Under the pieces are notes generated by a model. It was not told where the DNA came from, ran no database searches, and saw only the letters and a list, made by a program, of their open reading frames with translations. 25,000 bases of DNA from Chromera velia (taxonomy: Eukaryota > Sar > Chromeraceae), in assembly GCA_018398765.1 (NCBI GenBank), contig JAHBMJ010000289.1, forward strand, positions 1-25,000, written 5' to 3'. A program made the position numbers and the translations under genes. Below are positions 351-24,460 of this stretch, piece by piece (within the stretch, counting starts at the first letter, position 1; each line of letters starts with the position of its first letter).

Positions 351-496
351 GAGAGCGTTCCACTGGCCAGTGCCTGATCGTGTTGTCGGGCCTTTTGGTT
401 CATGTCCCTCACGATGGCCCCTGCCATCACATAGGTGATCACCTTCTCGCCTCCATGACCCCGGAGGTTCTCTACTAGGTCCGTGATGAATGATCC
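351..496 (-). CDS. Giant gene exon w35 (module R20, middle; last exon in window)
   Basis: Phase 0 in, phase 2 out, from GSFITDLVENLRGHG to HDQALASGTLS. The acceptor is CACGCAG and the donor GTCAGT. R20 still lacks its closing strand and Cys, so the gene must continue left of position 1. Read-through would stop at 170 in low-complexity Ser/Leu sequence. Confidence 0.8.
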
Positions 497-1495
497 CTGC
501 GTGCGTGCGTGTGTTTGCATGCAGGTATACAGACCATCAGAGAAAAACCTTGAGTGATCAATAGTTTCCACACAGGGAGATGGGGTATGTATGCATGCGT
601 GGGTGAGAGAAAAAAAAACGTGAATTTCCACCAATGAGACATCGATGGTGCAAATTGCGCATGCAACTGAAGAATTAAGAAAAGAAGGATTCAAAAAGAG
701 AGTGGAACGAACGAACGAACCTGCACGACGGCTTCACAAGTAGTCCCTCCCTGCTCGTACAAAGAGAACTCAAACGAAGTCGCAAATTGTGCCCCCTTCT
801 GGTGTGCCGCGTCGAAACAGTCGGGGAGTTCTACAGCATCTTTCATCCTCACGCGGCACCCCTCTGCAGAAAGCAAGGACTCGATTTGATTTGAATGGAA
901 GGAGCAAAATTGCTATCTCTCTGTCTCTCGGTCTGTCTGAGGCTTACAAAAAAAGGTGCCGCATTTCCTCTGTGTCCTTCATTGCTGATTCTCAGTTCAC
1001 TAAAATATTTCACTGGTATATCGTGCACATTCATAAATTTCAAACGATTCACCCTTTCAAAAACCTTCTCTTGCACACGAAATTAGCAATTGCACCCTTC
1101 CCGACATTTGAAGAGCCTGTGAGCATTTACGCAGGACGGAACTGTCCCGTCGGAAAACACTGCGATAACTGAAACCTGCTGCAATACACTCAGAATTGCA
1201 CAAAACCCTGGTTTTCTATCTATCTGCAGCCTGACCGACCGCATGGCCTGCCGACGTCATTGCAGACGTCTCCGGGTTCCAGTGTGAAGACCTTCGTGTT
1301 CGTGCCTCCGGTTGTGAGGCCCTCCAGTTGGGCCTGCAGAATTTGAAAATTAAGGGAAGAAAGACGTCGCACTACACAGAGTGAATGCAGGTTCCAGCTA
1401 GAATCGTCATGCATGTGCAGATTCTGTCCTGCAGTTTCCGGACGAGAGGGAAAGCCCACGTCCGCAAATTGAATGTGTGTGTGCGTGCCTCTGTG

Positions 1496-1528
<33 letters not shown>

Positions 1529-4500
1529 TTAAGTGAGCTCGTCTCTATGCGCTCCCGTTGTGAGTCACCGATTCTCCGCCTCATTCACGGCTTCATTGCT
1601 GCTTTTTTCAGTCGGTCACACACTGTTCTACTCACCAACTGGCTGACGGACAGACCTGGAGAGTTCCCTCCTTGCTCTGCAGTTTCTGGAGTGCCTTGTC
1701 ACACCCATATCTGCACAACAACTCGTGCATGGACACAAAGAAGGGAGGGATCAGAACGTTCCTTCATGAATGTGAAGCGCTGAATGGGTGCGTAGGGGGT
1801 TGGAGAAAGATTTGCCAATACGTTGGGTTCGGTTGAAACTTTATGGCAAAGTGGGGAAAAGAGCGCTGGGCTGAGACGGCTGGATATTTAGCCGAAAAGA
1901 AAGAACACTTCTTCGGCAGAAACGGTGTTCTGTATTGTCATTGATCAAATCTGTCCGGATAAGCAGAAGGGTCGACTGACTTGTCTTTGTCGCATTTCAC
2001 TCCATCAATCAGATAGTCAGCGTCTCTTCCTTTCCGCATTTGTTCCTCGAACACCTCCCAACAGTTAGCCCTCGCACTCACAGTGAAGGTCAGCGTGAGG
2101 GTCGGCAAGGAGCCTTGGTTGGAGCCGCCAGAGGGCTGGCAGGGGGGGCAGGTAGGGGTGCTGAGGGTGCCTGCAATCTGACAGGGGTCTGCAGGCAGAC
2201 AGAAAAGAGAAAGAGAATTAAGCACATAATATGAATTGAAGCCAGGAAGTGTGAAAAGGATAGCATAGACAAAGTTGGAGCGGAAGGGCTCGAAAAGAAG
2301 GTGGCGGTCTATTGACTGTATTCGCCCAACATAAAGAGAAGAGAAAAAACCGGAATGCAAACTTTTGGGTTCTTGTGGATTTGTTGGAGGTCATTTCATC
2401 AGCACCTTAGCGTATGTAGGGTGCAAAGAGCCACACATACAAAGCAAAGCTTCCGTCTGTATCATGTCCGCATCCTCCTACTGACCGCAGGGTTCGAGGT
2501 CCATCTCATCCCGAAACTCGACTGATTTCTTCAGAGGGCCCGTGAAAGTGAACTCCTGGTCTTGAGCGAAATCCGTTGTTGCCCTCATGACTGCCTGGAC
2601 TTTTTCCAACAACGCCAGAGCGTTTTCCTTCTTCCACTCCGCTGGCTTACCCCCCATGTCCCCCATCTTCTGCAGACACGACTGGCCAGTACTGCCCATG
2701 TCCAGCACTGTCTTCACACACGAGGGCCCCCCGTCCTCTCCCTTGTTGGTCACCTTCACTTTCACTTCCGCATCCGCATCCGTTGTGGTGGGATCCCAAC
2801 AGGTCGGCAGATTCGCCACACTCTGCAAGAAAGAAATCACGAAAATATCTTTCTCTAATTAGTGCTATTGTAAGTAAAAGGGTGCTGCAAGAACAGCTCT
2901 ACATGGCACATATTGCTCCATGCAGATCGGAACAGACAATTGGGATGGACATCCCCTCAAAAGAATCTGAAGGATCCTCCCAGCCATCGACACTCTTGAG
3001 AAGCCCACACGAACGAGCGAGCAACAATGAAGAAACCGCAGAACTGACCGTGCAATCCACTACGCATTTTTGGCAATCCGCCAGTCCCAACTGCAGCATT
3101 GTGATGGTTTCCTTTTTGACGGGTAGCACTTTGACATCAACTGCATGATCGGAGTCTCGTGCGGGTGAGGGGACCTTCTGGAGCTCTGAGAGAATTTGGC
3201 CTTTCAATTCTTCCACAAAGTCCTTGTGGGGACTTTTGGTGACCTTCGTCTTCAAGTCAGAAGGCGCGCTGCCTGCACACTTTTTGATAATGTCGCTGAT
3301 ATCGATATCATCTCTCTCTACCATCTCCGAGCAGTATGCCGCGCCATCGTTCCCCTCCTTGAACTTGATGTTAAAGGAGAGCTCCGTGTTGTCGTCCGCA
3401 CGGATACAGGGGGAGCTGGGAGTGCAGGTCTCCACGTTGCAGTCAGCTGCAGTGAGTGGGTGAGACGGTGGCACGGAGGAAAATAATAAGGGGAGAGTAA
3501 AATGGAAATGGAACGACGTGGAGGACCCTCCAATTTCGGTTGGTCCACTTCAATGAGTTCACACAGAAGTGTCATCGGGAGACAAACAAAAAGACATAGA
3601 AATGCTGGTTGAAACAGAACGGGCGAAAGAGAACAAAGAAAATGCGAGACGGGCAAACAACAGCAACAAGAAGGAAACACAATTCGATTCGACTGACGGC
3701 AGTCCGAAAGTCCCGTCAGACCTCCCGCTTCTATCTCTGTGAGGATTTCTTTTCCCGTCAAGGGGAAGGGCCCCAGAGTCAACGTGACAGGCACAGTAGG
3801 TCTCGTGGCGTCTGCCTCAAGTTCCACAATCAGCCACCGTCCCAGGTGGGGGCTTGAGGTGGAGGGGTCGTTCAGAGCGCAACCATCGGGAAGGCTTGCC
3901 CCTCTCTGTTCCGACAGTTTCAGGAGGCACTCCTGCAGGCAAATAACAAAACAAACCGAGTTGTTGGCCAAAGAGAGAGAGAGAGAGCGAAGAAAGAAGA
4001 GAGGACCCATGAAGATGAGTCAAGCCGGTACGTAGTGTGGGGAACAAAGGCACAACAACCCAGACAGATGCTCACACACATGCTACACTCTGTGCATGCC
4101 CACAGACAGACAGACAGACCTGCAGGACGTTGCTGCCTTCATGTCCAAAGACACGGGCCCGGATGGCGTCCACTCCCTGTGTGCCCCTGAATATTGTCTC
4201 TGAGACGACGTCACTGCAAGGCCTCCCCCCGGCCTCCCCGGCCTTCAGCTGGATCTCCCAGGTCCCCGTTCCCCTCGCGTTCTCTCTGGTGGGCTTGCAG
4301 GGAGGAGGCAGGAACTTCACCTTCACCTCACACGCCTCTGCATGGATGCAGGAGTGTCAGTCACAATCAGAGTCAGAAAAGGTATTTATTTCTGGAGGGC
4401 AGTGGGAATTTTCCCAATTCTTCTGTTTCCTTGGTCTCCCCACATCTGTGTACGTATGTGAGTGTACACGTGTGTGCGACTGTGAAAATGTATGGACCTG

Positions 4501-6856
4501 TGTGGGTGTCTGTAAATGCGTATGTGCCCGACCATGTGTGTGCACGTCTTCTCAAAAGAGAGAAGTGGAAGAGAACGTACGAAGGCAGTTTGGAGCTGTC
4601 TCCGTGTGTCGATAATGGCCATAGGGGGCTCATGGTCAAAGCTCAGCGTTGAATACCCACACCTCTATATTCTTCATCATCCAATGATGCATGTACTGAA
4701 TTGAATATGATTTGTGCATGCGCAAAGCTAGGCCCCCCCCCATGCACTCACTGGCTGACCGCACGTCTGGAGGCTGTCTTCTCTGCAGAAGTACCCGACG
4801 TCCGTCTCTGAGAGAGACGGCTGCTCTCTCAGAGGCCCGAACCCATCTGCAGGTCTCCACCCTGCCCACTCGTCTGCTGCAGAGGCCCGGTGGACTGTCT
4901 GGCTGAGCCTGAGTCTGTAGGCGTCGGGAATCGTCGCCTCCATCTGGACTGCTTGCATGCAGGTGCGGTATTTGGTACCGTGCACCATCTCATACCTGCA
5001 TGATGCAAATGAGACAGAAGGGGGAATCGACTGTCTGTCTGATGGGAATACGCACACTGAAAAAACAGTCATGAGGTCCAAACAAGGTTTGTCCAAAAAC
5101 ACATAGAGAAAGACAAGAAGCAACACTGTCTGTCTCTCTATCTATCTTCGAATCACGTGCAGTTGATGCCCTGCAGTTCCCAAAGTCCAACCCCATGTTG
5201 GTGACCCGCTTGATATCTGACTGCCTCTTTGTCAAGCTGTCTGATTCAGAAGGGGGCTGAGAACACCTGCGCATTGATGCTGCGATGCTGATGAGATGAG
5301 ATGAGATCGGGTCTGACGGTTAGCGACTCTTTGACTGACTTCAATCTCACGGAGGAAGTGAGCATAGAGGTGATGGCGGATTTGCAGGTCTTGCAGTTGT
5401 CGTCTACTGCGACCTTGCAGAACACTGCAGACAAGATCGAAAGACAGACAGACAGACAGACAGGTATCTGAACGAAAGGGGAAAATTGTGCCGAGTGTTA
5501 CCGGGTGGCATGAATGAGTCGAGAAAACGCGTGTGAGATCATGACCGTATACCTCATTCGCTCTGAATATCTGCGAAGCATACTCATGCAGTACTCCCCT
5601 TCACAGGCCGTCTTTGTAGAACACGACACGAGACCTTCCCATGCAATCACACGCAAAGAAAAGATCCCTCCGCATGTGGTCATCCATTCCCTTCTCTTCG
5701 CAACGGGCGATTCTCCTCCCTGATTCATCAGGTTCATAGCAAGGATAGTTTTCTTCTTCTCTTTGGCTGACTGAAAAGCAGGGATGAGGGCCACTCTTCT
5801 CAAGAAAGTCCGGTGGACACACCGAAGCATCTCAAAATTTCTCTCTTAAAGGAGACGAAATCGCACAGACAGACAGAGGGACGGACCGCAGTCCCGAGGT
5901 TCGAGTGCTCTCACTTCCTGCAAGAGCTTTTCTCCCTTGTAGCTGTCCACCAGGTCGTCTTTCCCTGCCGTCTCCACGTTGGCAGCGTCCTCGACTACCA
6001 AACGGAGGAGCTCTACAGTCACGTCCTGTATCGTTTGGGGGATGTTGGTGATCCGAAATGTCTCCGGGATTTTCTCCCGTCTCTGCAAAAACGCATCCCG
6101 CACCTGCAGCACAAACAAAGAGAAGAGCGAGGGCGTCTATTCTGACAGCACGGGCGGGCCACAATCATCAGAAAGAAATCTGCACTCTAAAGAGAGGGAG
6201 GCGAAAAAAGTCTGCACACCATTCCCCTCTCCTTCTATTGCTCAACAGAATTGGTGATTAGCTGTGCATTCCCTTCTTCAGGTATTGAGAAAGAGCAACT
6301 TAACTCCCCCCAACACTTGTCGGCAGATGTCCTATACACGTTTTCTTGACTGTATGCCAGACAGCTGAGAGGGAAGAAGAACTTCGCTAAATGGACAGAC
6401 ATTCGAGGAGACGTGAAGAGGGAAAAGTGCGAACATGACGACATGCTGACCTTATCTCTCCACGGGTGGGGGGTCTCCGGGGTCTGTTCTATCTGGTCGA
6501 AGTTTCCTTGCAGGAGGTCTTTGCAAGATTTCCCCCCTGCCTGCCCTCCCTGCTTCTTTGCAATCATGCGCACTTTGTCTGGAGCAGCTCTGCCTGGAAT
6601 GCAGGGTGGCATTTCTGGAATTTCAATCTCAACCTTGCAGTCCCTGCACTCAGAGACGCCAAACAGATCCGCAAGCACGCTCTGTGTCAGTCCAGGCAGA
6701 GAGACGTCAATGGAGTGATCTTGGGGTGTGTCGCTTGAAGGGAAGGACGCCTGGGGCGGAGTGATCTTCTGCTTGAGCCCTGTGCCGACGTTCTGGGCAT
6801 CTGGGTCGCTGGCGTCGACCAACAGCTTCTTTACCCCTGACTCGGAGGCGCCACAT

Positions 6857-6893
<37 letters not shown>

Positions 6894-9800
6894 ATCACAC
6901 ACTGACTCTACAGGCAGACGGACATAAGCGCAAAAGACACCACAACTTATTCCCTGTAGTTGGTATAGGCAAAGCTCGCTTGTGTGGGTTGAATGGACGG
7001 ACGAATCTAAGTGGAAGGTTATGAAGGTGGACAGATGAGCAGGCAGGCAGGAAGAAAGACAAATGCACACGCAGACCTGAGGAGGAGTTTGTCGAGGCCC
7101 ATGGCCCCAACAACGGTCCCACAGGACTTCCCGCCCTTTGCCTCCGTTTTGAAGTTCACTTTCCAGTTGACTGTATTTCCACTCGCACTGGCACATAGGG
7201 GGGTCTGGAGGTTGCAGCTCACTATGAAGCAGTCAGCTGCATATACTTGCATCAACAGAAGCGATCAGGAGAATGGACCATTCTACGGACAGACAGACAG
7301 AAAGACAGACACACCCACAATATTAAGAAAAAACGCATGAATTTCAACATGTCGGGCTGTGTGGCATGACCGAGTTTCTTTGTGTCACGCAGTACTCCGA
7401 AAAAAGGAGACTGATCCTCGAGATAAATTTGCAATTGGTGTGAGATTCCAATTTAGCAGGGTTCTAAAGAAGGATGGAAGAGAGACAGGCAGAGGTTTGA
7501 TGACTGCGAAACCGCTAAAGGGGGTGACGCACCGCATGGTTGGACTGTCGAGAACAAGCTGGAGGTCTCCATCACCTGCTGCATCCTCCCCTGGTCTGTG
7601 ACTGCAATCTTCACGTCTACTTTCTTCGTTGTGGGGGTGCCTGCCGTGGGGGTCCAGTTGTCGTCTCTGATGCCGAAGAGGAGATCGCTGTCTTTGTGGA
7701 AATAGTCGGGGACTGGACTTGGCACGTTCTCACAGAGATCGGAAGGGGGGCTCGTGCTCGCACAGGAGGAGATGACTCCTTGGGGCACTAGACTGATCAG
7801 CTTGCGGGTTTCGTCGTCAATGAAACCGTTGTCGAAGCCTTCTGGAAGAGAGGGTTGTCTGTCCCAAGGGTTCCTTTCGAGAAGATTGAGCGTCTTCAGA
7901 CAGGACAGGCCGCCCTTCTGCTGTTCCGTGAGTTCCATCTCGAGTACCATGTCGGCTCTGAAGGAATCACTCCCGCTGAAGGACAGACAGTCTGGGGGCG
8001 TCTTCATCGTCAACTTGACTTTGCAGGGAACTGCATGCATGCAGGGGGTGTCCACGTGCGCAAATAAGAAAGTCAAACAAGGGCCTGGCGCACCTGGCAC
8101 AAATCTGTTCACACTGTATGGATTGAGGCATACGAAAAGGAAAATAAAAGAATCGAAAGAGCACTCAGGTGGATAGACAAGGAGAGAGAATCGCACGCAA
8201 GGTTCGAAAACGCATTCATCCACTGGAGAGGAAACCTTCGGAGTGTGACCGTAAAAACGGAAGAGACTGAAGATGATCTGGATGAACTGACCGCAAACGG
8301 GGATATCGGCTTTGCAGACAGTCTTGACGACTTCAGGAGGGAGAGAGAGACTGGTTCCAATTGCGTGTTGAGGAGTCCAACCCAAGAACGGGATCGGCAG
8401 GTTGTCCTGAAAAGCCTTCAAACCCTGCGCGCTGCATTTCTTCTCTTGCTGCCCGTTGTTGTCACGAGTTGCGTCGCAGGCAGGTGGTAGGACTTCCTTG
8501 CACGTTTTGTGTTTACTTTCCCCCCCGCCTTGGCCTGCCAGGTCTTTGACAAAGCCTGCTGAGGTATCAGACGCTTCCAACTGCACAGAAAATACACACA
8601 CGGACATTTTCACACTTGCCGGTAACAGAACCACTCTTATCTGCAAGTTTTGTGAAACGATTTGAATCCGATGCTGCAAACACCCGTATGAGCCGGCCTC
8701 AGTCTGGAGAAATGGTCCAGGAAAAACGGTGGCGATCGGCAGCAAGTTGACTGCACAAACAGACTTTGCTTCCACCTGTTGAGGAAATGGTCGGATTCCT
8801 GATCGACTTGCAGAAAGAAATGAAGGCACAAAATTTCCGAAGTGCCCATCACACATCACATCACATCACACCACAGCGTTGCCTTCTGTCTGCACGAACG
8901 CACCCGACAATTAAACCGACGCACCTTCAATGAAGACTCCCTGTCCTCCTCATTCATCATGCGCTTGCACCTCTTGCACTTCTCCCAAGGCTCCAGACCG
9001 CACTCCACTGCACACAGGCAATGAAGAGAGAAGACCTTACACGCGGGGACCAGAGTATTTGTAGAAAAATCTTGACTAGGAGAAAAAACGTCTCGTCTTG
9101 GATCTGTAAAAAACCCACAGAGACAAGACAGAAATGCCAAAGGAAAGCCATAGAGTGTTTGACCGACGAAGACGCCCAAAGCTTTCCTGTGCTTCTTTCT
9201 CTCTGCCTCTCTGTCTGCCAGTAGATTCATCTCATCTGTCTCCCTGCCTGCCGTCCTCTCTTTGTGCTAGTAAATTTGCCTAACTAAGGGAGAGAGAGAG
9301 ACTGACTGCATCGCCAGATGGACATCTTGTCGGCGAATCCGCTGATTTGGGAAATGGGGTCACTGTCCCATTTTTTGCTCTTCTTCTGAACCGCAGCTCC
9401 GAATGCAACTTCGGTAGGATAGTCAGGGGCTTCCTTGACTTTTTTGGCAATCTGTTTGGCCACCTCTAGGGATGCCTCTTGGCGTCTCTGTGCGGGCATC
9501 TGGAGGTGATCCATTCCCTTCGCTTCAGGCCTCTCATTCCGCAGTGACAGCGCGTCGTTGACAGAAGAGGACCAGGCCTGCAGGGCAATTCGATCATTGC
9601 ATTTCAAGGACACTGATTAGAAAAATGAATTTTGGGGTGACAGAAATAAATTGCATTTCAATGATGGAATGCACAACTCCTTCGGTACAAACGCTCGATC
9701 AAAGACAACCGAAGACGACCCGGCTCTCTCATCGATTTCATGAACCGGAATCAATTGACGAAAGACGCAAATGGATACTTCGACCTGTTGAATACTTGAA

Positions 9801-12148
9801 ACCAACTGAGACCAAGAGAAAGGTCACTTTTCTTGATGCCTCCTCTGGAGTTCCCTGATCGATCCACTTTATCTTTCATCTCGCGATACCTCTACTGCTT
9901 CCACCCCATGACACGATTTGATTGATTGTTCCTTCCCCCTTTTGACTGACTGACCCTGATTGTCTGGGGGTCCTCAATCATCTTGTCACACGCGAAGCCG
10001 CCGGTCTCGGGGCCCTGGAAGTTCACCGTGCCGTACACGGTCGTCTTGACAGGGTCAGGAAGCCAGCAGACAGGAACGAAAACGTCTGAGATGGTAGCAG
10101 AGCAGGGCTTGCAGAGGGGAAGGCCGAGAGCCTCCAGAATCTCCGGGGTCACGTCAGGGACGGCCCAGGGAATGCTCGCGTGGCTCATTACGGCGGTGGT
10201 CCTTGCAGGGACCGTGACGCTGGAGGAAGCGCTCTTAAACGCGCTCTTGAAAGGAGCAATCTGTAGAGAAACAAGGAGAGAGTGAGAAGGATGTGAGGGT
10301 AGCGCGACAGTTGGAGTCTGCCTGTGTTTCGACATGGAAATTCGCCTTCACGCGTTCCATAGGGGACATCGCTGGGTCTTTCTGGAGAACGAATATCGAA
10401 AGAGAGAGGAAGGAGAATGGCCAATCCAAGCAGGCATGGAAGGGATGTGCTTGGCCGATCCTCCTTCATTGCCTTCTTTCTCCAGTACTTTTTTCATTTA
10501 TGTATACAATCGTTCACTCCGTGGTTCAAACCACGTAATAATACATGCAAACATCGAATCTCGTGAACGGACTCACGATTGCGTTCGGAGGGTCGTGAGA
10601 GGGGAAGCAAATCTTGAAGATCTTGTCTTGCATCGATTGCTGGGTGACCGCAGTCGCGCATGCTGGTGCAGGCTCCGCTCGCTCGTCCAAAGAAATCTTC
10701 ACGCAACAAGAGGGCGGGTATATAGAGAGGAACGAGGGAGATCGGTATCGAAGAGAAGAGAAGAGAAGAGAAGAGCAGAAAAGAGAAGGACATAGCAAGA
10801 GAAGCCACAGAGTGTCGGCAAAGCAAATGAGTACGCCATTTTGGCCACAGTCAGTCGACTCTCTCTCTGGGTAGCTCTTCTTTTGATTCTTTTCTTCTTC
10901 CCTTCCCTTTTCTTGTCCCTAGCTTTATTTGCAGGAAGGCAGTAACCCTTCATTCCAGTCCACCCTGTGACCCCATGTCTTCCCTTCTCAACAGAGACTG
11001 CCCTATCTCGCTGTCCTCCTGTAATTTTGTTCTTTCTCGCTCGTTCTCACGTTCTCTCACCAATCTGTGTGAGCATCCGCCACAGTCTCTCTCTGGGACT
11101 TACCGTTGCCGTGACGGTGTCCTTCTCTCCCCTTCCATTGGGGTTCTTGATGCATTTGGGCTCCAGGGAACAGCTTGTGACAGAACACTCCTCTGCAGGC
11201 GGACGCAGAACAGAAGCAGCGTCAACGCACAAACAGGCACAAGTCCTTTTCAAAGCAAAGGGACACATTTGCAAGCAGGTGCGTGAGTAAATAATAGATT
11301 GTGCAAGAATGGGCAGTGCCTCACAAACGAGCTAGAGGAAAGAAGCTGGAAAGAACCAGTCCGATTTGGTGTTGCCCTGCTCCCACGACTTGGGTTGAGT
11401 TCAAATCGTACCGAGATAGAACCGTTCTCGTTTGTCCCCTCGAGGCCACTTGCAAAGGCGGGCGTCATTTTCTTCCCTTCGCTGTTTGAACATTCTTCTG
11501 TCCTTGGTTTCCTTTCCTTTTGTTTTGATGAACTGTCAAACATGGTTACTATGTTATTGAACGACTTCCTCACTGACTGACCACAAGTTGCGAGGCCAAG
11601 GCTTGCAATTGCACCGTTGTCTGTCACCTGGATCTGCTTGATGAGAATCTCTGCTGTCCCGGGGTCTCGAGGAGAGGGGGCACTCGTCAGGGGCTGGGTG
11701 GCCAATGCCTCCCTGCTGACGAGAAATTCCAACGACTGACTAGCTGAGAGGGCAGAGCTCGGAGAAGTGAGCTTGCAGCCGTCTCTAGATGCAGAGCCTG
11801 TCGCTGCGGCTTCGAAGCACCTTTTGAGGTATGCAGACTCAGGCTTGGAGGGGGAGATGGGGGTGTTGTCGAGAACTAGGGCGAGGGCCTTCAGGACCTT
11901 CATCGAGCTGGGCTTTAGAGTGCTGAGGCTGTCGTAGCACGTGGCGCCTGTTTTGTGTCCCCCCTTAGTGATTTTGATCTTGAAATCGAGAAAGACAGGG
12001 CCTTCTACGGGAAGACAGGGAGCAGGGTCGAGGGAAAACTCCATCTCGCAGGGATCTGCACACACAACCACATAAACACAGGCTCATGTACAGACAGCCC
12101 TGCAAACGTTACGGGCGACACAGGGAGAGAAAGAGAAAGAGAGAGATA

Positions 12149-12193
<45 letters not shown>

Positions 12194-15004
12194 CAGATAG
12201 AGGAAGAGACGGAGATCCAGGGACATACCGCAAGGAAAGAGATCAGGCAGCTCCTTCTTGCAGATCTTGTGCGCACTCGTGGCATCGTCCACTGGCACTG
12301 TCTTGCCCTGGGACCGCCCGTTCAGTTCCATTCCGGCAAACACGTCGCGAAGTCTCTGCATGGATGGTGCCACGTTGAGGGAGGGAATTAGGGAAGGAAA
12401 CAAATGCATGGGCATCAAGCAGCAAAGAATTTAACGGATCGAGAGGATCTCTCGAGGATAGTCAGCAGTCATTTGTTCCTTTAATTGTTGCGGCGCAATG
12501 AAAAATTATGAAGACAAATGGGATGTACATTGAACGAATCGGACAGGCCATTGGGACTGCTCACCGGTGCCTGCACCGGCAAAGAAAAAAGGGGAAGCAG
12601 ACGGCCGGAAGGAAGGGAGGATGAAACCCTGACCTACCGGTATTGCTGTGTCTTTGATGTAGGCCTTCAGTTCATCATTCAGGCTGCCGTCTGCCTGTGC
12701 TGCGTCTTTGCAGGTCTTCAGGGTGTTCTGAGCAGGGTCGATGGCGAACTTCAGGGTCACCTCCGAGGACGCGTAGCCGTTCGAATCCGAAGGGGGACGC
12801 GAGCACGAAATGCATTTGTACTCGGCGGCAACCGAGCACACACCTACACATTTATGCACTCAAATTTACGTACATGTGCGCGCATCCCCACACTTACAGA
12901 CAAAGTCACGCGGAGAAAAAAAAATGAGGCACGGGACAAAGCAATCCGAAAATGAGGAAGGAAGGAAGGAAGGAAGGAAGGAATGCAAAGGGTGCTATAG
13001 AGGACGACAGGAAAGAAAAACCAAAGTATATCACACAACACCAAGCAACAATAAAACATATGACCAGCACACGAAAGCTCTGGGGAAATCCGAACGATTC
13101 GTGCGATAGAAGATCATTTCGACGGCTTTCCACTGGTTCCACCACTTTTTGCGGATTGCCACTGGGCATGTGATCACGCAAGCACATAGAGAGAGAGAGA
13201 ATGGAGGGGGCTTGTTGGAAGGCAATAGACTGACTGACTGACCACATGGGAGCATGCCCAGGCAGTAGCGGTGGTCCGGGCTGAGGGACATCAGCTGCAC
13301 TCACAGACACAGAGAGAGAAACAGAGGTGTGCGTTCGTGTGTGTGTCTGCGTGTTTTGGGGGAAGACGGTGCCGGGGGGGGAGGCTTTCGTGTCAGTAAG
13401 GGAGGGAGTGAGCTTGCTCCCGTCCGTTGATGTGTCCCTGTACGTGATTTTGTCCATGAGTGTACATACCTCTCGAGCTTCTTTCCTTTTTTGGCTTCTG
13501 ACAGGAGATCGAAAAGCACCACTGCATGTACGCAAAGGAACTTATGCGACCACAGATTCCGACAAAGCAAGCCCGCATGCATGCAGACCACCGAATTAAC
13601 CCAGCGACTGACGTCTACGTCCGCATTGAATGTCCCGGACATTTGCCTTCCGAGAGATCTCAGTGTCTTCTCCAGAATCGTGTCTGCCAGCTGTCGGACC
13701 GCGTTTTTGAAGGCCGTCTTGACCCTGTTATCCGACTCGAGCTGCAAAGTCTGGAGGGCGGTTATCCGTGCGTCTCTCTTGGCCAAGAGTGCCGTCTCCA
13801 ACGACGTGAGTGCCTTGGGCCGTGTGCTCTCCTCACTGTTCACAGCCGACCTGGCAAGTTGCAGAATTTCCCTGCAAGGTCTGCTCTTCGGGTTCGACCC
13901 TGGCGTGAGTGTGGAGCTGACTTGAATCCTCAGGTCCCCTGACTTGGGAGAACACTCAGCAAAATTGGGGACAGTCCAGGAAACGTCGCAGTCGTCTGCA
14001 ATATACAGAGGCAAAACGAAAAGACAGGAGAATACAAATCCATGAAAAAGGAGTCAAACACCAAAACATCCAGGTCAGAGCAGCACAGAACAGGAAACAT
14101 CATTGGAAGACCCGGGCGATGTGCAGAAAGAAAGAGGAGGCGCATATTCCATGAGGACTCGAAAGTGCCACTACCGAGTCGTACTCACTCACTCACTCAC
14201 TCACTCACTCACTCACACACACTGTCTGTCCAGGAGTTCCGCTCCAAAAAACACCCACAACATCTTCACGCAATGCAAGGGCGCACGGAGTGTCGACTGT
14301 AATGCCCAAAGTATAGAGAATCGAGAAATGAAACCGCCCATGCACTGACCGCACGTCTGCCATGCAGCAATCCTCTCCCATCCCCTCACGTCTTCCACTC
14401 TCATGACAAGCTCTACAGGGGCGGCTGAGCTTCCAACGAATGCGTCTGTGTCGAGTCTGTCCAGATCAGGGAACCGGGACTGCTGGAGGAGTTTGCAGAA
14501 GGCCGCCTGGATCACCTGCGCGTCCGCAGTCGCGGAACTTTGCCCGGAGTCTAGAGCTCCTTTGATCGCCTGCACGCATATGAAGGGATCAGAATGAATG
14601 GAGAAAACAACAAGGAAAAGAATAGGGGGGATTGAATTGTTTAGAGTGAAGACATAGGAAGGGAGTTTCCGATATGTAGCTCCGGATGAATGTGTGCCAG
14701 TTCAGAAACATGTGGTACTATGTGCACTTGCAATAAAACCCCCATCTAACGACTTTTGCGGTCAAACCTCCATTTGATGAAGCCAAGCACATAAACGTTC
14801 CAGTTCCATTTGTGCATGCATGAAACCCCCCCACGCACGCGTGGAAGGAGGGCCCATTTGAGCATGTAATGTGTTTCTCCACAGCACCTGAGTGCGTCCA
14901 ATGTCTCTGTCTGTCTCCTGCAAGATGAGCCAGTCAAACCACTTCAGTTCTCTCTGTCCCGTACAATTCTTCCTGGACTTCGTTCAGTCACACACATACA
15001 CACG

Positions 15005-15041
<37 letters not shown>

Positions 15042-18000
15042 ACCTCGAGGTCGGGGCAGTTCTCCCTCGCGACGACTGCACACGCCTTCCCAGGTGCCCT
15101 GCTTGCTGGAGATGAGGCTGCTGCCATGGTGAGAGTAATCTTGTAGGAGCCCATGGGGGCGTCAGCAGAGTGCTTGCAGGGAAGATCGGCCGTCGTTCGC
15201 AGTTGGCATGGCTCTGCAGAGAAGGAGGGGAGAGGAGAAAAGAAGAGAATCAGACGCGTGGATGTAAAGTCGAATGCAATCACGTGCGTTGAAATCTTCG
15301 TATGGACGAAGAAGTAGAAGTAAGAAACAGAGCTCAGAGGCCCTCAGATGGCTCAGGTGCATGTGGTTTCTCTTGTATGGAAGAGTGCTTGAACTTTTCC
15401 GGCCTAGTCTTTTCCATGCAGATTCAGTCTGGCCTGCAGATATGCAAATGGGAGGGCAGACAAACTGACGGCAGTCCGGAAGAGACGGCATCATTCTCTT
15501 CAGTTGTTCGGGTCCGAGTTCAATTTGGCCACGGTGCTGCAGCCTCCGACGGTCTGCAGGCCTGTTCGTGAGGTCCGTCAGTGCCACCAACTGCATGGAG
15601 GGAGTCGCCCTAGTGGAGTCCGAGCTAAAAGGGACGTCGAATGCTTTGCCAACCGCGGTTCTCCATGTGACGAACTCGTCGCCTGCCCATGAGATCCCGT
15701 CGTCTGCACTCTTCAGGGGGGGCACTGCGTTGGGAAAGCAGGCGGAGGTGATGGGGTCAGGTTGGTTGAAGGCCTTCTGCCCTGCATACGAGAGGATCAG
15801 TTTGCATTCTGGCTGGATGATGTCGGACGCAGTTGAGGTGACGTCAGTGGAGACCGTTTGCATCCCCGCATCGTGCACACAGGTCACCGTGCCAGGACTG
15901 CAAGTAGGCGTGCAGGAGACACAGAGCCTATTTTTCTGCGAGTAAACGTCCGTCTTCCATTTGTTGGCATCCTCAACAGCGACTTGAAGTACAGACGATC
16001 GAGCAGTTTGTGGAGAGGTGGGACGCCTCCAGATTTCGATGTCCAGTTTGTTCGTGATCTCAGTCTTCAGTAGGGGCCAAGTAGAGAGTAAAGACAATCG
16101 CTGGAGCTCAGCTTTCGTCTCCAGCTCAAAGATCTGACTGCAAGTGCGTCCCCCTGGTTCCCAGTCTCTGACTGAAAACTCAAACTGCGCCTTCATTGGG
16201 CCGACGTCCGCATCCATGTAGCAGGGAGGAACCAGGGGCCGGAGGTCGAGCTTGCAGTCAGAACAGGCAGCGGAACCGCAGCCAAGGACATTGAGAGCTC
16301 CACTGGCAGCGTCGAGCCTGAAGTTTTTAGAGCTGATTTGCGCAGTAAGAGATTCGGGTGTCCAGACGGAGAGGTCGGGACTTGTGCGAATGTACTCAAA
16401 GGCTTCGATGATCTTCGGATGGGATTTCCACCCCATGTCCCGGGGAGACAGGTTGGGATTGCGACAATTCTGGGATGCCTGCTTGAGCCTTTCCACAATC
16501 GCTTTCTGAAGACCTTGGTCGCAATCGCGTCTCCAGTTGGAGTCAACACGTGTGGGCTGGAGGTTGAATTGGATTTGGATGAACGGATCAGTGGAGGCCT
16601 CCGCGCGTTGGCAGCATTCGCAGTGGGCGTTGAGAGTTGCCGTGCAGCTCTGGCACATCTCTGGGTCCGTCGCCTGTGTGCCCAATCGGAATGCGGTCAG
16701 AGGAAGAACGATGGGCTCCATCTGGCCAGATTGGAGTCCCGCATCAGATTCTGCTATGTGATTTCCCAGCATTAGGCTTCTTCGGACAGCGTCTGCTTTC
16801 CATGATCCCAAAAGCTTCTCACTGTCTTCCACCCACATCACAGAAACCTCCGGAACCTCTTGTCGTCTTGCCCACTTTTCTCGGGCATCAGCAAGGACAA
16901 GTTCACACGGTTTGCCTCCCTGCTGCGGTTCTTCTAGAGACACCACGGGAATCAAATGCATCTGGAAATCGTAAGGGAGGCAGCGCTGGCTGCGTGGCTG
17001 GGTCTGTGCGAGGACTTTGATGGCGATCCGGCAGGGGTCGCATGCTTTGGGCGGAATGGCACCGAAGGCCATGTTCTTGTCTGCATTCGGGTTTCTAGTG
17101 TCTGCCTGTTGAAGGAATTGCAGTGCTTCGGGGTAGCGATCTATGGCGATCTCTGGATATTTTCTTCTGAACACCTGGATGCATGTTTCCGGCCTTCGGT
17201 AGCGTCCTGATGTGACGTCATACCACTCGATGGAGGGTGAGAGAACTCGGATGTTGCCTGGACACGATTGGCCAGATCCGGTCTGGGTGTAGGGCACGCA
17301 GGGGCATCCGGGTTGTTCGAAAATGAGCTTGCAGGGATAGTCTTTTTGGATGTTGAAGAATAATGTGTCGCATTTCATCTGACGTCCACTGCCAATGGCG
17401 TCTGCAGGGTTCTTGTGGGTCCCTGTTTTCGTGTGTTTGTTTGCGTCAGATGAGAACCCGCAACCGGTGTAGACCTGCTTCTTCTTGTCTCCATACCACC
17501 ACGTCAGGCCCCTGTTTTTGATATACCTCAAGTTCTGGTAGAAGGGAAACATGAAGGTGTCGCGCGTGCGTGAGGGTCTCCAGTGCCCCAGAAAGGACTC
17601 TCGGAGCTGCCCGCTGTTAGCGGCCTCGAGGGAAAAGCCATCATGGACAACGTGGAAGTCTACCTCACTGCCCGATCGCAGGCGGACACACCTGCACAAT
17701 TCAGCACAGACAGACACATGGAGGTATGGATATATTCCGTCATTCCATGCATGAATCTTCCCTTATTCGAGAGAGCAGCTTCATTCGTTTTTCGCTTCTG
17801 CTTTGACAGGAGAGACTTCTCGAAACGGGCAGAAAAACATCGCTTTTGCTGATATGAAACAAATGACTTCATCAAAGTCTACCGCAAACATTTTTGCCAG
17901 GCGTGTCGGGTCCGATGCACACATACTTTCTTGTAACTCTGTGGATGTTTGTGATTATTCAAGGATGCACGTACCAATTGTAGCTGTAATGTCCCCTTCT

Positions 18001-18904: not shown

Positions 18905-20747
18905 AACTCGATGCTTTATTCTGCAGCCGTGTGTTCCTTCCTCTCTACAGCGACGAGCGGCGCAAACAAAAACCCCACGAGCAAGAAAGAAAGAAACGTC
19001 TGCTGTGTATTCACAGAGGACACTGCATAGCGCATGACTGCCTGCTCTGTCATTCATAACGTTTTTGAATCAATTTTCCTCTGCATTCGCGAAAGGTACG
19101 GACAAAAGTTCGGGATCGCAGATTCACACCCCTTTCTGTGGACAAACAAAATGCTTCAGCCAGCCATTGTGTGCTCTTTTCAATTCACACAGTCCGTACA
19201 TCGACCAACCTCTGGAGGAGCGAAGTACTCGAGGAGAATGTCCGAGCTATCTAGATACTGAGACTTCAGGTCACCCGCACTGTACAGGGCAACGGACTTG
19301 GCGGCCCATCCCGCCCTTTCTCTCTGCAGGATTGCAGGTCGAAACGCAGACAGACGGAAGGCTTGGATCCAAGGAGGGAAAGAGAGACAGAGGTGCACAA
19401 AGGATGCAAAGGGTCCCCTAGTGAGGACTTTATTGTGTCAATGCACTTCAGTTTTCTCCTCGGAAAGTTTTGCGTCTTAGAAAGGGATGCACAAGGAGAA
19501 ATGCAAAAGCAGCGGCACCCAACGGCAGAGACCCGCATACACACATGCACACATACACACACACACCGAGAGTTTGAACAGAGAAATAGATGGAAAAACA
19601 TCAAAAAAGAGTCAAATTGATCGGACTACAAGGGCAATCTCATGAACGCACGCACACAGCACCCAACCACCATTACCCAGAACGTACCAAAAAAAAAAAA
19701 AAGGCACCTACCGACCTGCAGAGGTTCCCTGTTGATCTGCCAATGGGATTCCTCAGGCCCCGCTGTGAGAGCCTGGGTGAACGCCGGGTAGTTCATGCAC
19801 TGGGCAGGCCAGAACTGCATGCACTTCACGTTCTCTAGAGTGGGGGGGGGGTCGCACATCCGTTCGTCGTTGTGGAGAACGTCGTGCCATAATACGGGAG
19901 AGTCCTGCAGAGTAGTCCATTCACGCGCATGCACACATGCACATAGAGACACAATGCTTTGAGAAGAAAAACGGAAAAGAATGAGGCCGCTGCACCTTTC
20001 AGGTTCTGGAGAGACACGAAGAAAGCTGTGCCCCTTGGGCGCATCCTAGGGAGGAAGGGAAAAAAGAGAAGAAGAGAGGCAACAGGGGGTAAAAGAGGAA
20101 AGGTCCCTAAGAGCTGCCTACCACAAACTGTGCTGTGATGTGGTCCTCTCCTCTCCTTCCAGTTCCTTTGTTCAAAACGGCATTGAAGATTGTGTTTCGA
20201 GTGGCTGCTTCGTTCTGCAAATAGTATCAGCGAAGAGTAAACATACAACATCGGATGCTGGAGAACAGGCAGGCAGGTCAAGATGGCTGCTGTATCTTTG
20301 AATTGATCCCCTGACCCAGGAGCCCAGTCAAAAAAATGGACTCGCCTTTTCTTTCGTGTGTGTGCAGTGTCATCATACCCAACACGCACAAGAATGAAAA
20401 AGAAGAAAGCAGGCCGAGTCTTTTAATGTCCTTTTGTGTTGAGACCCGAGAAAAGAATGAATAAAAGACAAGACAAAATAAATAAAGAAGAAAAGAAAGA
20501 AAATACATAAGGAAGAGAGGAAGATAAGAAGGAGGCAGGGAGGCAAGGAGTCAGCTCGAAAAAGTGATACGAAGGGAGTCCTAGAAGGACAAAAGTCATG
20601 ATCCAGACGCAGACACACCTGCAGCGCGACTTCAAACCAGAATTCCTCCAGTGTGCACTTATGGAGATGGGTGCACCCTTTGCCCCCGTTCGGTCTTTGC
20701 GAAAGCGCATTTCTGGCATTGTCGAAACATTTGTACAAAATGGGGTC
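351..20747 (-). CDS. Giant multi-exon Cys-rich protein of at least 20 tandem CxxC modules (partial, runs off left edge)
   Basis: Thirty-five exons join in one open frame of about 3,110 codons; each is listed separately. All 35 donors are GT with G at +5, and 30 of 35 acceptors end TGCAG. The head (w1 to early w7) is unrecognised. Modules R1-R20 follow, each about 105-165 residues: C-x-x-C, about 7-14 residues, C, a hydrophobic strand often ending GG-x-x-C, a helical stretch, a second strand, then the next module's first Cys. Thirteen phase-1 introns sit inside C-x-x-C; all others are phase 0 or 2. The start codon and 5' exons lie above 20747 and were not identified; the 3' end lies left of position 1. 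I recognise no family and give no molecular function. A disulfide-bonded extracellular, wall or lumenal structural protein is inferred from the Cys pattern only. An intact frame across all exons argues against a pseudogene. Confidence 0.88.
721..863 (-). CDS. Giant gene exon w34 (module R20, first part)
   Basis: Phase 1 in, phase 0 out. The junction is PC-E-GCRVRMKDAVELPDC. The strand FATSFEFSLYEQ ends at GGTTC. It ends EAVVQ before donor GTTCGT, at the same place relative to the fourth Cys as the intron after w27. Confidence 0.88.
1240..1333 (-). CDS. Giant gene exon w33 (end of R19)
   Basis: Phase 0 in, phase 1 out, from AQLEGLTTGGTNTKV to NDVGRPC plus one base. The acceptor is TCTGCAG and the donor GTCGGT. 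It supplies the Cys that opens the next C-x-x-C. Confidence 0.78.
1474..1529. repeat. (GT)n microsatellite
   Basis: An interrupted GT run lies in the intron between exons w32 and w33. Confidence 0.9.
1656..1710 (-). CDS. Giant gene exon w32 (microexon in R19)
   Basis: Fifty-five nt, phase 2 in and phase 0 out (YGCDKALQKLQSKEGTLQ). The acceptor is TGTGCAG and the donor GTCTGT. It is accepted because it restores the frame between w31 and w33 and continues the Lys/Cys pattern. Confidence 0.65.
1981..2188 (-). CDS. Giant gene exon w31 (module R19, first part)
   Basis: Phase 1 in, phase 2 out. The junction is PC-D-PCQIAGTLSTPTCPPC, again with a second C-x-x-C. The strand PTLTLTFTVSA ends at RANC. 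It ends KCDKDK with Lys split by donor GTCAGT. Without splicing the frame would stop at 1938, leaving R19 unfinished, so splicing is preferred. Confidence 0.82.
2486..2822 (-). CDS. Giant gene exon w30 (module R18, remainder)
   Basis: Phase 0 in, phase 1 out, beginning SVANLPTCWDP. The strand DAEVKVKVTNKGED ends at GGPSC. Helices with Lys/Glu follow, and it ends MDLEPC plus one base. The donor is GTCAGT. Confidence 0.9.
3049..3446 (-). CDS. Giant gene exon w29 (module R17 and start of R18)
   Basis: Phase 1 in, phase 0 out. The junction is DC-P-DCNVETCTPSSPC with the class-1 extra Cys. The strand ELSFNIKFKEGN ends at GAAYC, and the closing strand AVDVKVLPVKKE leads to LGLADC. It crosses CQKC into R18 without an intron and ends VVDCT before donor GTCAGT. 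Confidence 0.9.
3698..3932 (-). CDS. Giant gene exon w28 (module R16, second half)
   Basis: Phase 0 in, phase 1 out, from ECLLKLSEQRGASL to LTGLSDC plus one base. The closing strands are WLIVELEADATR and VPVTLTLGPF. The acceptor is CCTGCAG and the donor GTCAGT. Confidence 0.88.
4120..4337 (-). CDS. Giant gene exon w27 (module R16, first half)
   Basis: Phase 1 in, phase 0 out. The junction is TC-E-ACEVKVKFLPPPC, close to R3, R8, R12 and R20. The strand GTWEIQLKAGEA ends at GGRPC. It ends GSNVLQ before donor GTCTGT, itself the start of a GTCT repeat. Confidence 0.88.
4760..4995 (-). CDS. Giant gene exon w26 (module R15, remainder)
   Basis: Phase 2 in, phase 1 out. It begins YEMVHGTKYRTC, which finishes the strand and supplies the fourth Cys, and ends DSLQTC plus one base. 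The donor is GTCAGC. R15 totals 321 nt, the shortest complete module. Confidence 0.86.
5340..5424 (-). CDS. Giant gene exon w25 (module R15, start)
   Basis: Eighty-five nt, phase 1 in and phase 2 out. The junction is DC-V-FCKVAVDDNCKTC with a second C-x-x-C. The strand TSMLTSSVRLK is cut by the intron at GTCAGT and continues in w26. This donor was preferred over later GT sites because only phase 2 fits w26. Confidence 0.8.
5887..6103 (-). CDS. Giant gene exon w24 (module R14, second half)
   Basis: Phase 0 in, phase 1 out, from VRDAFLQRREKIPE to LEPRDC plus one base. The closing strand is DVTVELLRLVVEDAAN. The acceptor is GCTGCAG and the donor GTCCGT. Confidence 0.87.
6451..6856 (-). CDS. Giant gene exon w23 (end of R13, start of R14)
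   Basis: Phase 2 in, phase 0 out. It begins CGASESGVKKLL, ends R13 at FGVSEC and crosses CRDC into R14 (KVEIEIPEMPPC) with no intron. The strand KVRMIAKKQ ends at GGKSC. It ends HPWRDK before donor GTCAGC. This intronless junction matches R9-R10 and R17-R18. Confidence 0.9.
6859..6888. repeat. (AC)n microsatellite next to an acceptor
   Basis: An AC run lies two bases outside exon w23. On the gene's strand it is a GT run ending directly in the GTGTGCAG acceptor, so the acceptor tract is a microsatellite rather than a polypyrimidine tract. Confidence 0.9.
7077..7236 (-). CDS. Giant gene exon w22 (module R13, start)
   Basis: Phase 1 in, phase 2 out. The junction is PC-A-DCFIVSCNLQTPLC with the extra Cys shared with R9 and R17. 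The strand NTVNWKVNFKTEA ends at GGKSC. It ends DKLLL with R split by the intron; the donor is GTCTGC. Confidence 0.86.
7533..8030 (-). CDS. Giant gene exon w21 (complete module R12 in one exon)
   Basis: A 498-nt single-exon module flanked by phase-1 introns, homologous in layout to w14. The junction is VC-V-PCKVKLTMKTPPDC; the strand ADMVLEMELTEQQ ends at GGLSC. A variable middle has two extra Cys (SSC, DLC), and the closing strand KKVDVKIAVTDQG leads to VQPC plus one base. The donor is GTGCGT. Confidence 0.92.
8292..8580 (-). CDS. Giant gene exon w20 (module R11, remainder)
   Basis: Phase 0 in, phase 1 out, from LEASDTSAGFVKDLAG to KADIPVC plus one base. Gly-rich GQGGGESKHKTC carries the fourth Cys, and several further Cys follow (PPAC, KKC, TVC). 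The donor is GTCAGT. Confidence 0.87.
8925..9007 (-). CDS. Giant gene exon w19 (module R11, start)
   Basis: Eighty-three nt, phase 1 in and phase 0 out. The junction is RC-M-ECGLEPWEKCKRC with the second C-x-x-C of class-3 modules. It ends EDRESSLK before donor GTGCGT. Confidence 0.8.
9307..9577 (-). CDS. Giant gene exon w18 (module R10, second half)
   Basis: Phase 0 in, phase 1 out, from AWSSSVNDALSLRNE to DKMSIWRC plus one base. It is mostly charged helix (EVAKQIAKKVKEA). The acceptor is CCTGCAG and the donor GTCAGT. Confidence 0.86.
9955..10260 (-). CDS. Giant gene exon w17 (end of R9, start of R10)
   Basis: This has 102 codons, phase 0 to 0. It begins IAPFKSAFKSASSS, ends R9 at ALGLPLC and continues without an intron through CKPC into R10 (ATISDVFVPVC). 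The strand KTTVYGTVNF ends at GGFAC. It ends PQTIR before donor GTCAGT. The junction R9-R10 has lost, or never had, the phase-1 intron. Confidence 0.88.
10577..10696 (-). CDS. Giant gene exon w16 (module R9, middle)
   Basis: Forty codons, phase 0 to 0 (ISLDERAEPAPACATAV to SHDPPNAI). It completes the strand begun in w15 and carries the fourth Cys (PAPAC). The acceptor GTGAAG is weaker than most; the donor is GTGAGT. Confidence 0.7.
10751..10775. repeat. (AAGAG)n repeat
   Basis: An AAGAG pentanucleotide run lies just outside exon w16. On the coding strand it provides a CTCTT tract upstream of that exon's unusual GTGAAG acceptor. Confidence 0.9.
11104..11192 (-). CDS. Giant gene exon w15 (module R9, start)
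   Basis: Eighty-nine nt, phase 1 in and phase 0 out. The junction is TC-E-ECSVTSCSLEPKC with an extra Cys, shared with R13 and R17. It ends DTVTAT within the first strand, before donor GTAAGT. Confidence 0.8.
11582..12055 (-). CDS. Giant gene exon w14 (complete module R8 in one exon)
   Basis: A 474-nt exon with phase-1 introns on both sides encodes one whole module. The junction is PC-D-PCEMEFSLDPAPC; the strand VFLDFKIKITKGG precedes GATC, helices follow, and the closing strand EILIKQIQVTDNG leads to LGLATC plus one base. It is a symmetrical 1-1 cassette of 158 codons, a type that can be inserted or duplicated without a frameshift. Confidence 0.92.
12125..12189. repeat. (AG)n microsatellite
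   Basis: An AG run with a few interruptions lies in the intron between exons w13 and w14. It reads as CT on the gene's strand. Confidence 0.95.
12229..12355 (-). CDS. Giant gene exon w13 (module R7, end)
   Basis: Phase 0 in, phase 1 out, from RLRDVFAGMELNG to LPDLFPC plus one base. The acceptor is CATGCAG and the donor GTATGT. It completes the short module R7 (333 nt over two exons). A long AG microsatellite lies in the next intron. Confidence 0.82.
12638..12843 (-). CDS. Giant gene exon w12 (module R7, first part)
   Basis: Phase 1 in, phase 0 out. The junction reads PC-G-VCSVAAEYKCISC, with a second C-x-x-C typical of class-3 modules. The strand SSEVTLKFAID ends at TLKTC. The acceptor GTGTAG is one of the few not ending TGCAG; it was chosen because only it gives the required phase. 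The donor is GTAGGT. Confidence 0.8.
12956..12982. repeat. (GGAA)n repeat
   Basis: About seven GGAA/GAAG units lie in the intron between exons w11 and w12. Confidence 0.95.
13243..13294 (-). CDS. Giant gene exon w11 (microexon closing R6)
   Basis: Seventeen codons plus one base (LMSLSPDHRYCLGMLPC), phase 0 in and phase 1 out. It supplies the terminal Cys needed before the next C-x-x-C. The donor is the first of repeated GTCA units (GTCAGTCAGTCAGT). It is accepted because both phases fit w10 and w12 exactly. Confidence 0.68.
13613..13995 (-). CDS. Giant gene exon w10 (module R6, main part)
   Basis: Phase 1 in, phase 0 out. The junction gives TC-D-DCDVSWTVPNFAEC. The strand GDLRIQVSS leads to the fourth Cys in KSRPC. 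A long charged helical region follows (residues from CREILQLARS to LRSLGRQ). It ends NADVD before donor GTCAGT. Confidence 0.87.
14183..14220. repeat. (ACTC)n repeat
   Basis: About nine ACTC units, ending in AC, lie in the intron between exons w9 and w10. Confidence 0.95.
14350..14569 (-). CDS. Giant gene exon w9 (module R5, second half)
   Basis: Phase 0 in, phase 1 out, from AIKGALDSGQSS to WQTC plus one base. It is a helical stretch (QVIQAAFCKLLQQ) followed by the closing strand VELVMRVED. The donor GTCAGT comes right after the first base of the codon that follows Cys. Confidence 0.88.
14983..15040. repeat. (AC)n microsatellite next to a donor
   Basis: An AC run almost touches the GTAAGT donor of exon w8. 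On the gene's strand the intron begins GTAAGT and runs straight into GT repeats. Confidence 0.95.
15044..15213 (-). CDS. Giant gene exon w8 (module R5, first half)
   Basis: Phase 1 in, phase 0 out. The codon split by the intron gives DC-Q-PCQLRTTADLPC, so the intron lies inside C-x-x-C. The strand GSYKITLTM is followed by PGKAC instead of the usual GGxxC. The exon ends NCPDLE before donor GTAAGT. The next intron carries an AC microsatellite. Confidence 0.88.
15470..17691 (-). CDS. Giant gene exon w7 (large exon: end of head, R0-R4)
   Basis: At 2,222 nt (phase 2 in, phase 1 out) this is by far the largest exon. It starts with CVRLRSGSEVDF, continues the head through a Trp/Tyr-rich part (LTWWYGDKKK), then a degenerate module R0 (PCKLIFEQPGCPC). 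Four modules without internal introns follow. Their C-x-x-C motifs are CDPC (17031-17042), CQSC (16644-16655), CSDC (16254-16265) and CVSC (15912-15923), spaced 129, 130 and 114 codons. R1 has GGKPC and R3 has GGRTC as the strand-end motif. The exon ends SLPDC plus one base before donor GTCAGT, the first phase-1 intron of the gene. Tandem modules without introns contrast with the split modules downstream. Confidence 0.93.
17975..18279 (-). CDS. Giant gene exon w6 (head region)
   Basis: This exon has 101 codons plus two bases (phase 0 in, phase 2 out), from VLLPHREVSQDPRD to SARRGHYSYN with W completed by w7. The acceptor TCTTCAG follows a long CT tract; the donor is GTACGT. A Gly-rich segment (HIGGFGTGSDYI) and one Cys in HSCGGKK are visible. 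I compared it with MACPF-type motifs and found no match. Confidence 0.8.
18300..18332. repeat. (AG)n microsatellite
   Basis: An AG run lies just upstream (gene sense) of exon w6. As CT repeats it forms the polypyrimidine tract of that exon's TCTTCAG acceptor. Confidence 0.95.
18774..18827 (-). CDS. Giant gene exon w5 (microexon, head region)
   Basis: Eighteen codons, phase 0 to 0 (ERYLLGNTGKLTLLAYGE). The acceptor is TGTGCAG and the donor a canonical GTGAGT. It is supported by exact phase fit with w4 and w6. It lies just left of an ATCC/CAGA microsatellite that occupies its upstream intron. Confidence 0.62.
18840..18904. repeat. Compound (ATCC)n-(CAGA)n repeat
   Basis: About seven ATCC units are followed directly by about eight CAGA units, in the intron upstream of microexon w5. 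Confidence 0.95.
19210..19323 (-). CDS. Giant gene exon w4 (head region)
   Basis: Thirty-eight codons, phase 0 to 0, from RERAGWAAKSVALY to LLEYFAPPE. The acceptor is CCTGCAG and the donor GTTGGT. It has no Cys. It reads as one amphipathic helix followed by a short strand; no family is recognised. Confidence 0.72.
19716..19904 (-). CDS. Giant gene exon w3 (head region)
   Basis: Sixty-three codons, phase 0 to 0, beginning DSPVLWHDVLHNDERMC and ending NREPLQ. The acceptor is CTCTGCAG and the donor GTCGGT. It has three Cys (MCD, KCM, QCM) and several Trp, typical of a folded extracellular segment. The frame stays open upstream for about 140 bp, so a longer exon is possible but would contain intron-like sequence. 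Confidence 0.75.
20122..20214 (-). CDS. Giant gene exon w2 (head region)
   Basis: Thirty-one codons, phase 0 to 0, from NEAATRNTIFNAV to HITAQFV. The acceptor is TTTGCAG and the donor GTAGGC (G kept at +5). It is hydrophilic, without Cys. Phase and charge pattern join smoothly to exons w1 and w3. Confidence 0.68.
20619..20747 (-). CDS. Giant gene exon w1 (head region)
   Basis: This encodes 43 codons, phase 0 at both ends, from DPILYKCFDNAR to FWFEVALQ. The acceptor is CGTGCAG and the donor GTGTGT. It contains three Cys and a Gly-rich turn (NGGKGC). There is no in-frame ATG, so it is not the first exon. No family is recognised. Confidence 0.72.
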
Positions 20748-21966: not shown

Positions 21967-22001
21967 AACACGAACAAAAAACCAAGAAAAAATGCAGAGC
22001 T

Positions 22002-22031
22002 CGCGCGCGCGCGTTGTGGAAGTGCGCGCGG
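22002..22031. repeat. Alternating CG runs
   Basis: Two runs of alternating C and G (22002-22013 and about 22024-22030) lie close together. They have Z-DNA-forming potential and border the region upstream of the giant gene. Confidence 0.6.
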
Positions 22032-22189
22032 GGCCTGTTAACTTGAAAGAAAAGTCAGTCAGGTGACTCATTGAATGGTGGCTATCAAGACGACTGGCCA
22101 CGGAATGTTACCTACACCGAGGTTGCTTACTTGCATGACCACAGAACTCTTCAAAACCTCTTTGTGAGTCGTTGGAGGCTTATTCACAA

Positions 22190-24251: not shown

Positions 24252-24460
24252 CTCTGAGAGAAAGACGTACTTCTACAAATTCCTTTCAAAGAATCCGTTC
24301 TTGTCAGGGCGGCTCAAGAAAGCCCCAAGAGGCACTGTCAAAAAAGCAGACCCGTAAATCAGCACCGAGGCTTGAGAGATCGGCTCGCCCTTTTCTTGAA
24401 TTGAGGGGGCAACCGAGGTCAGAACTCAAGGTCAATCAGTCTGGGACACAGCCACGGATT

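Follow-up and report, generated by a model that had tools for sequence, protein, structure and literature searches.

A 25,000-nucleotide window at the start of a Chromera velia contig (JAHBMJ010000289.1, C288 in our numbering, positions 1-25,000) carries on its minus strand 20 tandem cysteine-patterned modules (M1-M20, 17042-351) in what is predicted to be one giant gene, and a colinear paralogous array, with 26 modules (N1-N26), lies on contig C840 of the assembly that we searched (177.8 Mb, 4040 contigs). New here are phase-1 module borders placed at a CxxC motif, a four-module repeat, and the colinear paralog itself. We consider it quite likely that the modules are a new disulfide-bonded domain family with the mode of growth set out below, and the best explanation of the whole is probably a giant secreted rod of this new domain, grown by intron-mediated tandem duplication.

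Cysteine pattern and predicted fold of the modules

Exons were predicted with a Viterbi model of our own, which was seeded with a long open reading frame (ORF) and hand-picked intron stretches and was blind to the modules. On the minus strand it gave 33 predicted exons from 19859 to 351 that form a single open frame of 3014 amino acids without a stop, and the modules fill this frame from amino acid 423 to the contig end, where M20 is cut; because the window begins at the contig start, the array is incomplete. A sequence-only reading of this DNA had claimed tandem Cys modules in at least 20 copies in one giant protein, which the 20 modules in one predicted frame bear out. In the predicted 3014-residue protein, CxxC is present 25 times where 5.1 would be expected (at most 14 in 2000 shuffles), and GGxxC nine times where 0.42 would be (shuffle maximum of 4), its carriers being M1, M3, M10, M12, M13, M14, M16, M18 and M20, the identical set of nine that had been listed from the letters. 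Alignments of 19 modules show four invariant Cys per module, not counting the CxxC of the module that follows, with an identity to the first alignment row of about 11-34%. Leave-one-out hidden Markov models (HMMs), for which the N-terminal 62 residues of the modules were used, recognised 18 of the 20 modules (at most 2 of 200 shuffles with Cys kept in place reached the score), which points to homology outside the Cys as well.

Structurally, a module appears to be best delimited by two successive CxxC motifs, beginning on the second Cys of the one and finishing on the first Cys of the other. The CxxC has the appearance of a joint, where one module ends on the first Cys and another begins on the second, since the border introns described below sit at a fixed codon after its first Cys. 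Counted in this register, the number of Cys is even in 40 of the 45 complete modules of both genes (binomial p 3.9e-8), a pattern typical of domains held by disulfide bonds; a register starting at the first Cys gives 20 of 26 even modules in the C840 array, against 22 of 26 for the joint register. The layout first proposed for this array thus held as a repeat family and failed in its register, which was one Cys off, with the CxxC spanning two modules. Each of the 19 complete window modules holds 4 to 8 Cys, and some hold two CxxC. Such pairs are common metal ligands, and modules with two of them would suit zinc or iron-sulfur binding domains of an intracellular protein; this explanation is very unlikely given the even Cys counts, the signal-peptide-like starts of both genes, and the introns that split CxxC at the module borders.

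AlphaFold2 (AF2) predicted M17 (3076-3701) as strand-strand-helices-strand-helix, with a predicted local distance difference test score (pLDDT) of 72.7 and a predicted template-modelling score (pTM) of 0.60, and gave M8 (11586-12232) the same order of elements; the inputs were unspliced window stretches, 14 for M17 and 12 for M8, whose alignments share rows, so that the two predictions are not independent. N8 lacks the second Cys of CxxC as well as the GGxxC Cys, and this co-loss together with the predicted strand order suggests that these two Cys pair.

No known family emerged from the searches. Pfam gave no significant match of the array (lowest E 0.059; the C840 array was covered by 10 modules), PDB sequence and profile searches gave none (lowest E 0.17), and protein-database searches gave none at E<=10 in one search and E<=1 in two, in which only word-sharing candidates of similar length were scored. 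The M17 model likewise found no match in a PDB fold search and none in the BFVD viral fold search (best E 1.5), and no report of such an array was found in the literature consulted, including passages of PMC3488318. Matches to RRM (E 0.13), beta-glucosidase (0.17), gamma-tubulin (2.4, 4.2) and Fer2 (4) were set aside as being at chance level. The family as such is well supported, and the earlier description of the domain as unrecognised stands as far as these searches reach. An ordinary modular surface protein, made of domains from a known extracellular family that have diverged too far for profiles to reach, is an unlikely alternative to set against these negatives: at the identities seen among the modules themselves, outside relatives could be invisible, and a word-based search needs shared 5-mers as well as similar length.

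Border introns and the four-module repeat

The borders of the modules are marked by introns. Across the two genes, 36 of 46 module starts have an intron, and every one of these is phase 1 and interrupts one fixed codon of the CxxC joint, the one directly after the first Cys, behind its first base. By gene, 13 of 20 starts in the window have such a border intron (13/13 phase 1), with the other 15 introns of the array all phase 0 or 2 (0/15 phase 1), and 23 of 26 starts have one in C840 (23/23 phase 1), with 3 of 21 other array introns in phase 1, including the one that closes N26. Exact matches to the border position would be expected by chance about 0.07 times in the window and 0.09 times in C840. 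Class 1-1 modules are defined by a phase-1 intron at both borders; all 36 border introns here are phase 1, with no intron at 7/20 and 3/26 starts. The intron-less starts are M1-M4, M10, M14 and M18 in the window and only N10, N14 and N18 in C840, so that starts 10, 14 and 18 lack an intron in both genes. Among border introns, 22 of 36 donors read gtcagt; among the remaining introns of the two genes 16 of 55 do (Fisher p 0.0024), as expected if the border introns descend from one intron.

M1 (16656-17042, with GGxxC), M2 (16266-16655, with CxCC at its third Cys as in N2), M3 (15924-16265, with GGxxC) and M4 (15474-15923) share one 2.2 kb exon (15470-17691) with M0, a degenerate module. All of N1-N4 in the paralog start at a phase-1 intron; perhaps the window gene lost its border introns here en bloc, as gene conversion with a cDNA copy could have brought about. 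M5 (14354-15473) and M6 (13247-14353) each start with a phase-1 border intron. From M7 to M20 the array is a higher-order repeat of four modules in classes a-d (permutation p 0.0028, within the window array), and the period of four is found also between the window and C840 arrays (p 0.004). Class a comprises M7 (12233-13246, with CxxC at its third Cys), M11 (8296-9310), M15 (4764-5890) and M19 (1244-2489); class b comprises M8, M12 (7537-8295), M16 (3702-4763) and the truncated M20 (351-1243), which has N20 as its closest single match; class c comprises M9 (10114-11585) and M13 (6649-7536), both with an extra Cys, and M17; and class d comprises M10 (9311-10113), M14 (5891-6648) and M18 (2490-3075, also with an extra Cys), all three without a border intron. 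The end of the contig that cuts the gene is an AC/AG simple repeat (1-140).

Paralogous arrays and the extent of the gene

An HMM built solely on window modules recognised 19 of the 26 C840 modules, none of which had been used in building it. The two arrays are colinear, in that same-number modules are most alike among all offsets tabulated (double-centred p 2e-5). Because a colinear array lies on another contig, the window exons can be read as one gene, and the C840 array argues for this even though its default model splits it into three genes (394, 3594 and 1003 amino acids). If the gene matches its paralog, the window carries most of it, with 20 of about 26 modules.

Two further loci with modules were found (18 of 27 candidates scored). 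One, on C3692, carries modules of its own that resemble 19, 20 and 21 (19 and 20 by weak matches), and was rejected for that reason as the continuation of the window gene; the other, on C760, has two modules, like 23 and 24, and could be that continuation or a fragment. These fragments, the truncation of the window gene at the contig end, the predicted nature of the gene models and the three-gene default model of C840 would all suit a pseudogene in decay, or a mosaic that the exon model pieced together from several genes. We regard this as highly improbable, given 33 exons without a stop, a constrained Cys frame and a colinear paralogous array.

Upstream, the gene probably reaches beyond the module interval to about 21594, through exons placed by hand; the interval of 351-17042 given at the outset therefore stood for the array and fell short of the full extent of the gene, at its upstream side and at the contig end. 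These putative minus-strand exons, which make the N-terminus a tentative one, are a signal-peptide-like first exon (21544-21594, MTGSRRRLRRLCALLFA, with ATG and a gt donor, absent from the Viterbi models), a second (21378-21404, LTATPSLCQ, with ag/gt ends, phase 0), a third that opens the N-terminal region shared with C840 (20619-20747, DPILYKC...CTLEEFWFEVALQ), a fourth (20122-20214, NEAATRN...AQFV, with ag/gt ends, phase 0) and a fifth (19716-19904, with KCMQFWPAQC where C840 has KCIQFWPLDC), inside which the Viterbi start at 19859 falls. An exon at about 20045 was dropped as an N-terminal piece, as it breaks the frame. The hand-placed exons thus read as a signal-peptide-like start followed by DPILYKC...CTLEEF, the C840 gene has a similar three-exon, signal-peptide-like start by hand reading, and the N-terminal regions of the two are 29% identical over 118 amino acids (E 7e-7, with a hand-joined query). 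As to the extracellular setting of class 1-1 modules, both genes have signal-peptide-like first exons, as judged by eye.

A number of observations weigh against the reading of a secreted rod of new disulfide-bonded modules in a single gene. Both gene models consist of predicted exons throughout, of which the first ones were placed by hand, and in two attempts the Viterbi model chose the upstream N-terminal exons in neither gene. The C840 array was joined as one gene only with a raised start/stop penalty, at which the model overran wrongly into the downstream gene. M4 (11/200) and M11 (12/200) are weak in the leave-one-out test; seven C840 modules (N1, N2, N4, N8, N13, N19 and N21) fail the HMM test; and the same-number partner is the best match for only 4 of the 20 window modules. 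Odd Cys counts occur in M6 (5) and in 4 of 26 C840 modules. An intact CxxC stands at 22 of the 26 C840 starts (19 of those 22 with an intron); in N6, N8, N12 and N13, where one CxxC Cys is kept, the intron defined the start, lying at the usual distance from that Cys. For the repeat, the period-2 contrast nearly equals that of period 4 (1.04 versus 1.13, window array). The M8 model is a poor one (pLDDT 56), the disulfide pairs rest on the one co-loss, seen in a module (N8) that the HMM did not recognise, and on a model of medium confidence, and there is no domain of known function from which a role would follow.

Around the paralog, the gene downstream of it (about 38-45 kb on C840, minus strand) bears an HRDLK-type motif, from which we take it to be kinase-like. 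N16 (about 64.7-66.0 kb on C840), with 324 residues and 12 Cys, has about twice the usual length and may hide a fused or nested module. Between 44.8 and 54.9 kb, towards the C-terminus of the C840 gene, no exon resembling a module reached an E below 0.19.

Proposed protein, its growth and its setting

We posit that the protein would consist of a signal peptide, an N-terminal region and then a rod of alpha/beta disulfide-bonded domains of about 100-200 residues. Each module would fold alone, as a hairpin, helices, a closing strand and a helix; a bond between the second CxxC Cys and the GGxxC Cys would pin the hairpin, the third Cys would bond with the closing Cys, and the two residues inside CxxC would be the linker between modules. 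Functionally, the size, repetition, signal peptide and likely disulfides lead us to suggest, tentatively, a long bead-string filament, resistant to proteases, that would belong to the cell surface, the wall or a flagellar coat and would serve to space or bind ligands.

Evolutionarily, unequal crossing-over in the border introns would add whole modules with the frame intact, a gain without frame damage that follows from both borders being phase 1, and the array fits such growth. Single copies would have come first, after which a four-module block would have been copied and then the whole gene duplicated. Among metazoan proteins, EGF, Kunitz and similar domains are class 1-1 modules. According to one review, exon shuffling with such modules is practically restricted to animals, and why phase 1 prevails is posed as a question (Patthy 2021, PMC8001218). 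Our array resembles the metazoan proteins described there in its tandem, probably disulfide-bonded extracellular modules with phase-1 borders, multiplied without frame damage. It differs in belonging to a photosynthetic protist, in having no sequence or fold match, in placing the intron inside the CxxC joint, and in showing only tandem growth and gene duplication rather than shuffling into unrelated genes; among the 18 of 27 candidates scored, modules were found only in paralogous arrays or fragments, not in otherwise unrelated genes. Class 1-1 mechanics in this protist are thus suggested as tandem growth and gene duplication only, not as transfer into unrelated genes. That a photosynthetic alveolate built its own class 1-1 module system independently of animals, with the border introns at the CxxC joint used again and again as recombination points, at the levels of module, four-module block and gene, to make proteins several thousand residues long, is a possibility to which we give somewhat less than even odds. 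If true, it would be a clean independent case of phase-1 module growth outside animals. Exon shuffling as such is reported for brown algal ROCO genes (PMC11378527).

Among chromerid proteins, Chromera velia has a tandem 'two-cysteine' domain, exemplified by Cvel_967 (Woo et al. 2015, PMC4501334), which in the passages that describe it resembles our modules as a tandem Cys-bearing domain of an extracellular protein and is set apart by its two Cys, against four or more per complete module here. The apicomplexan and chromerid domains COWP, CPW-WPC and LCCL, in the same passages, are alike in being secreted, Cys-rich and in some cases repeated; none of the modules scanned has a significant match in Pfam, which may or may not include a model for each of these domains. 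The modules enlarge the set of extracellular domains in a probable alveolate alga by an apparently new family; such algae are studied for clues to how apicomplexan surface proteins arose.

In the genome at large, the RuBisCO large subunit family had 0 matches, despite 58 matches to light-harvesting families, in keeping with a photosynthetic organism, and 11 to the alveolin family, an alveolate-like trait that is not exclusive, as a Caulobacter control was also positive; the RuBisCO of Chromera velia is reportedly a nuclear form II gene, so that the lack of a match speaks against this species if that gene should lie in the assembly. The window itself has no Rfam match at the gathering threshold, no tRNA and no match in a plasmid collection. 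Upstream of the giant gene it has an AT-rich stretch (22001-23000, GC 0.393) and, farther on, an ORF of the ribonuclease T2 family (23334-24272, minus strand, Pfam E 7.8e-18).
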